Assembly (NCBI RefSeq): GCF_039962255.1
Contig: NZ_JAMPKY010000001.1
Span: forward strand, 496,001-560,000
DNA: 64,000 nucleotides
Source of the DNA: Leptolyngbya subtilissima AS-A7
GTDB lineage: Bacteria; Cyanobacteriota; Cyanobacteriia; Phormidesmidales; Phormidesmidaceae
Direction: 5' to 3'
Shown here: piece after piece, positions 19,990-23,018 of the stretch
Layout of the letters: each line of letters opens with the position of its first letter
Position numbering within the stretch: position 1 is the stretch's first letter
Translations under genes and position numbers: made by a program
Notes under the pieces: model-generated
What the model saw: only the letters and a program-made list of their open reading frames with translations
Told to the model about the DNA's origin: nothing
The model's database searches: none

Positions 19990-20062
19990 GGGGAATTAGC
20001 TCAGCTGGTAGAGCGCTGCGATCGCACCGCAGAGGTCAGGAGTTCGAATCTCCTATTCTCCA
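19990..20062 (+). tRNA. tRNA-Ala, anticodon CGC
   Basis: A 73-base cloverleaf: acceptor GGGGAAT pairs with ATTCTCC, the D arm is GCTC/GAGC, the anticodon stem CTGCG/CGCAG closes loop ATCGCAC with anticodon CGC, and the T arm is AGGAG-TTCGAAT-CTCCT. The G3-U70 wobble pair, the identity signal for alanyl-tRNA synthetase, is present. The 3' CCA is not encoded. A HIP1 octamer GCGATCGC spans the anticodon stem and loop. Confidence 0.95.
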
Positions 20063-20087
20063 TCTTTGAAAACACCTCAAACCATTA

Positions 20088-20120
20088 CGCAACAAGGAAC
20101 ACATCCTTTGTTGCGTTTTT
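20088..20120 (+). terminator. Terminator of tRNA-Ala
   Basis: CGCAACAA-GGA and TCC-T-TTGTTGCG pair in an 11-bp stem with one bulged T, followed by five T. It lies 25 bases after the tRNA. Confidence 0.85.
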
Positions 20121-20386
20121 ATATTTTGGCTACTTTTAGATCGATTTAGGCCGTTCTAGGCACTTTGGGAACTCTTGGGCACTCTCGGAAACCCTTGTGG
20201 TTGAGTGTTTTGAAGGCCTTTTTGATGCACTAGTACTATGCTCAGAGGTGCCAGACACTGCGGTCAGGCTCCTATCGTAATAAGTAGATTCCAAAAACTT
20301 AATAAGAGCACAGGTTCGGTTTTAGTCAGAAGAGACCGCTAATCCTGCGATGGCGAGTTGACGGATCGAACAAGAAAGTGTTGTGA

Positions 20387-23018
20387 AGTTGCCCAAGTTC
20401 ATCACCCACCGGCACCCCTACCCGCTTTCAGCAAAAGGTAGACGATGGCGGCCGCTGGTACGAGGTCTATGTCTTTCGAGTGGGAGACCCGGCCCGGCGC
20501 CAGATCGGCATCTTGATTAACGACATTAGCGATCGCAAGCAGGCGGCCCTCGCCCTTCAGCGCCAGATTCAGCAAGAATATCTGCTCAACGACATCAACG
20601 AGGATATTCGCCAATCTCTCGATCTAGAGGCGGTACTGGCACGGGCGGTGGAGCGCAGCCAGGTAGTGCTAAAAAGCGAGCGGGTGGTTGTGTTTCGGTT
20701 GGTAGGCAGTGAGGAGGGCCAGGTGATTGCCGAATCGGTGGGCAGCGAGTTTGCGCCAATTCTCGGCAGCACCATTCACGACCCCTGCTTTAGCGATCGC
20801 TAAAGCAGGGGTCTATCGCCAGGGCCGAGTAGGGTCGATTGATGACTTAGAGCAGGCCGATATTGAGCCCTGCCACGCCAACCTGCTGCGGCAGTTTCAG
20901 GTCAGGGCCAATCTGGTGGTGCCGATTTTGCGCAGTGAGGCCGGGGCGGATGGCGACCACCAGAGCACCGATCTCTGGGGCCTGCTGATTGCCCACCAGT
21001 GCGCCGCCCCTCGCCAGTGGCAGCCCGCCGAAAAGGCCCTGCTCAAGCGCATTGCCAGCCAAACCAGCGTTGCCATTCAGCAGTCAGAACTCTACGGCCA
21101 GGTGCTGCAAGAACTCCAGGAGCGCGAACGGATGCAGCAGGTGCTGCAGGAGAGCGAGGCCCGGTTTCGCACCCTCAGCGCCACCGCCCCCATTGGCATT
21201 GGCCAGCTCGACAGTCAGGGGCGCTGCGTCTACACCAACGCCCGCTGGCAGGCGATCGCAGGGCTGAGCGCTGAAGCATCCCTCGGGAAGGGCTGGCTGC
21301 AGGTGGTGCACCCCGAGGATCGGCCCCGCCTGGCCCTCGTCTGGGAAGAATATCTGGCCGGTTGTCGCCCACGCCTGCCCGAGTTCCGCCTGCTCACCCC
21401 CCAGGGCGACCTGCGCTGGGTCGAGGGGGCGATCGCCCCCATTCATACTGCTACGGGCGACATCAGCAGCTACGTCAGCACGGTCGAAGACATTACCCAG
21501 CGCAAAGAGGCCGAGCGCCAGCTGCGGCAGCAGGCGGCCCTGCTCGACATTGCCTCTGACGCCATTTTTGTGCGCGACCTCGACCACCGCTTGCTCTACT
21601 GGAACCACGGGGCCGAACGTCTCTACGGCTGGAGCGCCGACGAGGCCCTCGATCGCCCGGTGCACGATCTGCTGGACGGCGACCTGCCCCAGCTGAACAG
21701 CATTATGCAAACCCTCTACAGCGAGGGCGAGTGGCGTGGCGAGCTGCACGAGGTCACCAAAACCGGCCAGTCAGTGATCGTATCGGCCCGCTGGACCTTG
21801 GTGCCCGACGAGGCGGGTCAGCCCCGCTTCATTCTCTCGGTGGAGACCGACATTACCGAGAAAAAAGCGCTCGAAGCCCAGTTTTACCAAGCTCAGCGGC
21901 TAGAGAGCTTGGGTCGCCTCTCTAGCGGCATTGCCCACGACCTCAACAATGTGTTTACCCCCATTTTGACCATGACCCAGATGCTGCGCTATAGCCAAAA
22001 GGGCCTCAGCGGCAATGCCCAAGAGCAGCTGCGCCTGCTCGAAGACAGCGCCAAACGGGGCATCAGCATGGTGCAGCAAATCTTGTCGATCACCCGCTCC
22101 AGCAGTGGGGTGCACACTGAGGTTGACCTGTCGCCGCTGCTGCAAGATCTCAGCCGCATGCTGGAGCAAAGTTTGCCCCGGCAGATCACGTTGCGACAGG
22201 TGGGGTTTGAGCCTGGGGTCGCGCTGCCCCGGGTTAGTGCCGACCCCACCCACCTGCACCAGGTGCTGATGAATCTCTGCGTCAACGCCCGCGACGCCAT
22301 GCCCGATGGGGGCACGCTCACCATTGCTGCCGAGCCAGTGGCGATCGATGCTGCCACCACGACCATTCACCCCGATGCCCAGGTGAGCCAGTATCTGCGG
22401 CTGACCGTGGCCGACACGGGTACGGGCATTGACCCAGCGGTGCGCGATCGCATCTTTGACCCTTTCTTCACCACCAAGGGCCAGGATCAGGGCACCGGGC
22501 TGGGGCTGGCCACGGTGATGGGCATCGTTAGAGGTAGCGGAGGCTTTGTGCGGGTCGAAAGCGCGGTGGGGCAAGGCACCCAAATGCAGGTCTATCTGCC
22601 TGCCCTATCTACCACCCAGAGCGACAGCCCCCAGGCTGCCGGGCCAGAGACTCCCCCATCGGGCCAAGGAGAGATAATTTTACTGGTCGATGACGACGAC
22701 TCGGTGCAGCAGGCCGTGCGATCGCTGCTAGAAAACTACAACTACAGCCCCCTGATCGCCAGCAACGGCCTGGAGGCGATTGATCTCTGTGCCCAGCACC
22801 AGCCCACCCTGGTAGTGCTCGACATCATGATGCCCGGCATGGATGGCCTCACCCTGATTCAGCGCCTCAAGCACCGCCAGCCCGACCTTCTGATCATTGC
22901 TACCAGTGGTCTAGCCACCTACCAGGCAGCGGCGATCGCCGCTGGAGCCAAGACCTTTTTGCCCAAGCCCTACGATTTTCGCGATCTGCTCAGGACCATA
23001 GCCGACCTGCTGCGTTAA
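20387..23018 (+). pseudogene. Truncated and frameshifted hybrid sensor histidine kinase
   Basis: Coding sequence for a hybrid kinase. From the left: the tail of a PAS/PAC domain (WYEVYVFRVGDP...GILINDISDRK), a GAF domain, two PAS domains, a HisKA dimer with phospho-acceptor GIAHDLNN, an HATPase_c with N box (NLCVNARDAM) and G boxes (DTGTGID, GTGLGLA), and a C-terminal receiver with VVLDIMMPG. Two faults are visible. An in-frame stop at 20384 and the absence of any PAS start mean the 5' end is missing. The GAF frame breaks at about 20801 (DPCFSDR then stop), while the rest, from AGVYRQGRVGSID, runs in the next frame to 23018. The kinase and receiver parts are intact and could still be expressed by re-initiation. 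Confidence 0.8.
20780..20813. repeat. Perfect 34-bp palindrome at the GAF frameshift
   Basis: The left arm GACCCCTGCTTTAGCGA is followed immediately by its exact reverse complement, with no spacer. The centre is a HIP1 octamer GCGATCGC. The left arm encodes the conserved DPCF of the GAF domain, while the right arm replaces the usual YVEx residues and adds one base. Confidence 0.95.

Follow-up and report, generated by a model that had tools for sequence, protein, structure and literature searches.

Probable template switching at a HIP1-centred inverted repeat in a truncated cyanobacterial sensor-kinase gene

How does a bacterial reading frame come to end inside a perfect inverted repeat? The question is raised by a locus in what is called here the window, a stretch of 64,000 nucleotides (G000:C1:496001-560000) from a genome of 5.66 Mb in 18 contigs (G000). 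A preliminary description of this DNA had reported a perfect 34-bp palindrome at 20780-20813, and the palindrome is indeed present, with two 17-nt arms that are 100% complementary and separated by a spacer of 0. The right arm occupies 20797-20813, and the other elements of the site are the following.

20780..20813, no strand: the whole palindrome, with a 33-base non-palindromic counterpart in G013, G011 and G015
20780..20796, + strand: left arm, ancestral and the likely template; identical in G013 and G015, 1 base different in G011
20793..20800, no strand: HIP1 octamer GCGATCGC, the palindrome centre, read from the sequence and found at the same place in G013, G011 and G015
20801..20803, + strand: TAA stop made within the palindrome
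20803..20809, + strand: rewritten segment AAGCAGG, which replaces six bases (TATTGA in G013)

The left arm encodes DPCFS and thus contains the conserved DPCF that had been assigned to it. DPCF and the Y of YRQGRV are separated by 22 bases in the window and by 21 in G013, G011 and G015, which agrees with the spacing given earlier. The palindrome was originally considered to have created a frameshift that broke the gene. One base has in fact been added and the frame downstream is shifted by +1, but the first lesion is a different one. The reading frame runs through DPCFSDR and then meets the TAA at 20801-20803, which is made from copied bases and lies upstream of the extra base. Because this in-frame stop comes first, the extra base has no chance to act.

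The ancestral state of the site could be established from relatives found in a search of 26 genomes of Nodosilinea, the genus to which the window also belongs. Three of these supplied the comparison: a sister species (G013), Nodosilinea sp. FACHB-131 (G011) and Nodosilinea sp. LEGE 07298 (G015). The alignment proposed in the preliminary description was run, and G013, which matches the window at 96% identity over 751 bases, carries a counterpart of 33 bases that is non-palindromic, in frame and reads DPCFSDRYIEVYRQGRV. Its length and frame are shared by G011 and G015. Relative to this form, six bases of the right arm have become seven, a net gain of one, and this replacement sequence complements the left arm exactly. 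The earlier proposal that one arm was copied from the other around HIP1 with the addition of a single base is therefore borne out by the alignment of relatives.

The ancestral 33-base form, as preserved in G013, is itself an imperfect inverted repeat, in which GACC/GGTC form the outer pairs and TAGCGA/TCGCTA the inner pairs. This arm pairing is short, with four outer and six inner pairs, and the predicted DNA hairpin of the ancestral form (-1.3 kcal/mol) folds no better than shuffled sequences. For the palindrome the predicted value is -17.1 kcal/mol. An intermediate state was seen in none of the three aligned relatives (G013, G011 and G015).

The palindrome is very probably the result of a quasipalindrome-correcting template-switch mutation, in which one arm was rewritten from the other. 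Every changed base is templated by the other arm, and the change made the repeat more perfect over a span of 34. An imperfect inverted repeat existed at the site beforehand, though one that is weak as a hairpin. Under this model, the polymerase would have passed the HIP1 centre of the ancestral 33-base repeat and primed on the folded nascent strand, read the left arm in place of the true template, thereby synthesising its complement, and switched back to the true one at GGTC. Such an event would convert six bases into seven, perfect the palindrome, create the in-frame TAA and shift the frame by +1, all of which we infer to have happened in one step. Because the left arm is the unchanged arm, the simplest geometry is that of a self-folded nascent + strand; this strand presumably served as the template, and the replication strand is assigned on the same presumption. 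As background that carries no weight in this verdict, a search for exonuclease families found SbcD and the ExoVII large subunit and did not find the ExoI C-terminal family.

The switch mechanism is known, and the present locus is a clean natural case of it. It has been established in E. coli (PMC7202029, as far as the text was accessible), and PMC8604942 (available text) reports the same model for genes of phage T4, E. coli and yeast. At the E. coli thyA hotspot and in lacZ QP reporters, an imperfect inverted repeat is likewise perfected by arm copying, with changes of frame or codons. However, those cases are selected mutants and reporters, whereas the present one comes from natural species and has HIP1 at its centre (compare the accessible part of PMC7202029). 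Among yeast strains, comparison of relatives has likewise revealed multinucleotide changes in genes that arose through homogenisation of arms, but these are amino-acid replacements, in contrast to the stop and frameshift observed here in a cyanobacterium (compare the available text of PMC8604942). The core octamer of the palindrome is the one described as HIP1 in cyanobacteria (PMC4390886; PMC3219970). In the portions available, those two papers treat methylation, mismatch repair and RNA polymerase rather than template switching, and the words hairpin and quasi are absent from PMC4390886. A loss of this kind by template switching in cyanobacteria, or a tie between HIP1 and template switching, was not found in searches of open-licence papers.

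The preliminary description implied that the gene was intact before the event, and this implication did not hold. The full-length homologue in G011 comprises 1292 codons and encodes PAS, GAF, HisKA, HATPase and response-regulator domains. Homology of the window begins about 420 codons into that gene, and G000 and G013 both lack approximately the first 420 of the 1292 codons. The window-G013 alignment is unbroken across 20407 and the sequence upstream of it, and no close copy of the missing 5' part is present in the G000 or G013 genome (best match 49% identity). The relevant features are given below.

19990..20062, + strand: tRNA-Ala (cgc), the gene upstream of the remnant
20407..23018, + strand: remnant of a 5'-truncated hybrid sensor-kinase gene; homology with the 1292-codon G011 gene begins at 20407
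20817..23018, + strand: part of the remnant after the palindrome, open in the ancestral frame to the stop, with the GAF end, PAS, HisKA, HATPase and response regulator
22199..22250, + strand: ancestral form, at the start of the HATPase domain, of a site that became an inverted repeat in G013

Outside the two inverted-repeat sites, comparison of the remnant between G000 and G013 revealed no stop and no frameshift, and a 6-base in-frame indel is the only length difference. For the remnant, G000 and G013 give a dN/dS of 0.123, from 31 nonsynonymous and 75 synonymous changes in 843 codons. For neighbouring open reading frames the pooled value is 0.06 over 34, with single frames ranging from 0 to 0.25, so that the value for the remnant falls within the range of single neighbours. 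This comparison used 34 of the 46 open reading frames of at least 200 aa, after the remnant, overlapping frames and a few others had been left out by eye. Lineage-specific codon changes, scored over 865 codons, number 20 synonymous and 11 nonsynonymous in G000 and 35 and 10 in G013. Taken together, the dN/dS value, the otherwise undamaged frame and these lineage-specific changes suggest that selection probably continued to act on the shortened frame once the two lineages had split, until recently. Between the tRNA-Ala gene and the remnant (20064-20386), 6 of 323 bases have diverged from G013, compared with 117 of 2603 in the remnant.

A second event is evident in the same remnant. In G013, the sequence corresponding to 22199-22250 has become an inverted repeat with 22-bp arms and a 4-base loop that is four bases shorter than its counterpart, a -4 frameshift that breaks the G013 frame. 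At this site the ancestral frame is still intact in the window, G011 and G015. The predicted hairpin changes from -12.0 kcal/mol in the window form to -30.6 kcal/mol. At both sites the left arm matches the sister species (in G013, over its outer 20 bases), and it is the right arm that has changed. Judged from these alignments, each sister lineage carries one disabling inverted repeat in the same gene, and each is explained by a local arm. The two gene losses, in G000 and in G013, appear to have been recent and independent. The palindrome may have survived because it fell in a kinase that had already lost its 5' part and was dispensable. If the template-switch reading is right, the locus provides a natural, outgroup-polarised case in which a template switch ended a reading frame in a bacterium, and the sister species carries a second such case in this gene.

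Among the other explanations, the one that survives best is that the palindrome is an artefact, produced either by an error in the consensus or, while the library was prepared, by fill-in of a strand folded back at the HIP1 palindrome. The palindrome itself is known from one assembly, and enzymatic fragmentation has been reported to give false multi-nucleotide changes at palindromes (PMC6941819, available text). However, 90.4% of such false palindromes are nested within 30 bases of a read edge, according to the same portion of that source, and errors that lie mostly near read ends should seldom be kept by an assembly consensus. Furthermore, the sequence goes back to its ancestral form at GGTC, and a like event is found in the separate assembly of G013, in the same decaying gene. 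An artefact is therefore unlikely. One implication is that what looks like a frameshift at a palindrome in a draft genome can be a genuine mutation.

A far less probable account is that several independent point mutations and an insertion completed the palindrome by chance. Substitutions between the two species are frequent (36,046 in 706,624 aligned columns), yet the seven new bases stand in a row and each of them is complementary to the other arm, and the three aligned relatives offer no intermediate. The role of chance was assessed by scanning the window-G013 alignment for clusters of at least 3 differences. Each whole cluster plus 2 bases on each side was sought in the reverse complement within 150 bases on either side, with the reversed and the complemented sequence as controls. 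Clusters of differences explained by one local switch have likewise been described in great ape genomes, where the statistics come from a pair hidden Markov model, whereas ours come from a simpler scan for exact matches, controlled with the reversed and the complemented sequence (PMC7954356, available text).

Within the 64-kb window, 2 of 222 clusters (444 tests) match the local reverse complement at 14 nt or more, with spans of 34 and 22. The reversed and complemented controls gave 0 and 0 at 14 nt, and their longest match was 12. An extended scan covered the 706,624 aligned columns, with 2679 clusters and 5358 tests per control. The numbers of matches to the reverse complement, the reversed control and the complemented control were 19, 30 and 4 at 10 nt; 9, 8 and 1 at 14 nt; 8, 1 and 0 at 16 nt; and 6, 0 and 0 at 18 nt. 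Reverse-complement matches with spans up to 14 nt are thus not separable from the reversed control. Judged against these control counts, short matches are meaningless and spans above 17 occur in the reverse complement only. The longest control span is 17 in 5358 tests each, and the palindrome, with its span of 34, stands above every control, as does the span of 22.

Eight tests in the extended scan reached at least 16 nt. Three of them were judged by eye to be alignment effects and were dropped: at G000 220235 three bases differ next to a palindrome that is kept in both species, and G000 644224 and 644260 lie in a repeat array of T and A. The five candidates kept are G000 516803, G013 371338, G013 522129, G000 165871 and G000 459101. 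Only 516803 and 522129 are polarised by outgroups, and for G013 371338 the alignment of relatives is compatible with either form as ancestral. Two of the five fall in one 2.6-kb gene, for which the probability by chance is roughly estimated at 0.04 for events chosen after being seen; their sharing of one gene is in this weak sense improbable. Long perfect palindromes are also rare in their own right. Across 860 kb of G000, palindromes with no spacer become fewer up to an arm of 9, none have arms of 10-13, and four have longer ones (14, 14, 17 and 19). Among those four, 20780-20813 is the only one centred on HIP1 (1 of 1042 HIP1 cores).

Two further accounts, that a mobile palindromic repeat was inserted or that a similar sequence at a distance was copied, can be set aside with near certainty. 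HIP1 is abundant, with 86 copies in the 64-kb window, but a 19-base arm query found only two exact matches in the genome, which are the two arms themselves. It returned 19 other matches with at most 3 mismatches; the nearest has 1 mismatch, and most of the rest share the HIP1 half. Thus, the local donor has no equally good source elsewhere in the genome, and a repeat with several genomic copies was rejected on this result. The net gain of one base and the ancestral left arm also mean that nothing of the size of a palindrome was inserted. Equally implausible is a functional hairpin serving as a terminator or programmed frameshift signal, which the strong predicted hairpin might suggest, because the site is non-palindromic in the three aligned relatives and lies within a conserved coding stretch, and a search for an intrinsic terminator (a GC-rich stem followed by a T run) found 0 in 20500-21100.

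The position of HIP1 at the centre of the palindrome raises the possibility that this octamer, which is over-abundant in cyanobacteria, is a ready-made nucleus for template switching, with a HIP1 site occasionally turning, in a single event, into a perfect palindrome of at least 30 bp. If this were true, genes would be broken within coding DNA, hairpins would be written near gene ends, and HIP1 would be a measurable source of lineage-specific mutation. In the 860 kb of G000 and the 868 kb of G013 examined, perfect arms centred on HIP1 become fewer up to a length of 9, and the only longer ones measure 15 to 17, at 1 of 1042 cores in G000 and 3 of 1041 in G013. In 200-kb samples of other genomes, they occur at 2 of 247 HIP1 cores in G003 (arms 17 and 18), 0 of 230 in G002 and 0 of 250 in G023 (longest arm 10). 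Overall, arms of at least 15 are present at 6 of 2810 cores, where about 0.01 would be expected from geometric decay, and none are of 11-14; these counts are not independent, since G000 and G013 share most HIP1 cores.

Other palindromic cores behave similarly. Arms of at least 12 occur at 6 of 2810 HIP1 cores and at 11 of 6654 other 8-bp palindromic cores in the five genome samples (Fisher p = 0.60), and a HIP1-specific hotspot, with more long perfect palindromes per core than others, is not supported by this comparison. Two of the four HIP1 palindromes of G000 and G013 could be aligned between these two sisters, each of them being perfect in just one of the pair; those at G013 763378 and 854925 are without an aligned orthologue in the G000 stretch compared. 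The three non-HIP1 palindromes in G000 with arms of at least 14 are kept in G013. Two further non-HIP1 palindromes in G013 (22 and 48 bp) are imperfect in G000, so species-specific perfection is not confined to HIP1. A special role for HIP1 as a nucleus is therefore doubtful, and it may simply be the commonest 8-bp palindromic nucleus. Quasi-palindromes centred on HIP1 are nevertheless ready test sites at which such mutation could be measured in cyanobacteria.

Several other palindromes were encountered in these genomes. In G018 (L240-L249), which is of the same genus, the 200 kb sampled contain no HIP1 octamer, whereas the other genomes sampled have more than 1 per kb. Two perfect HIP1-centred palindromes were observed in G003, one of 34 bp inside a signal-peptide-like open frame (L230 4664-4697) and one of 36 bp about 50 bases past an open frame (L236 5729-5764). 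The 48-bp palindrome of G013 (G013:C11:689350-689397; L116 1350-1397) is perfect, has the core CGATCGCGATCG and lies shortly after an open frame. Its G000 form is nearly, not fully, palindromic, and either correction or decay is possible. A HIP1-cored hairpin of G013 (G013:C11:371315-371346; L083 12316-12347) is a perfect 32-bp palindrome downstream of a gene that is presumably tsaD, judging from how it reads. Among the orthologues of this hairpin (L250-L261), that of G024 is a perfect 34-bp palindrome with different arms, and those of G000, G011, G006 and G022 are imperfect. The longest palindrome near the tsaD-like gene is HIP1-cored in 6 of the 12 loci examined.
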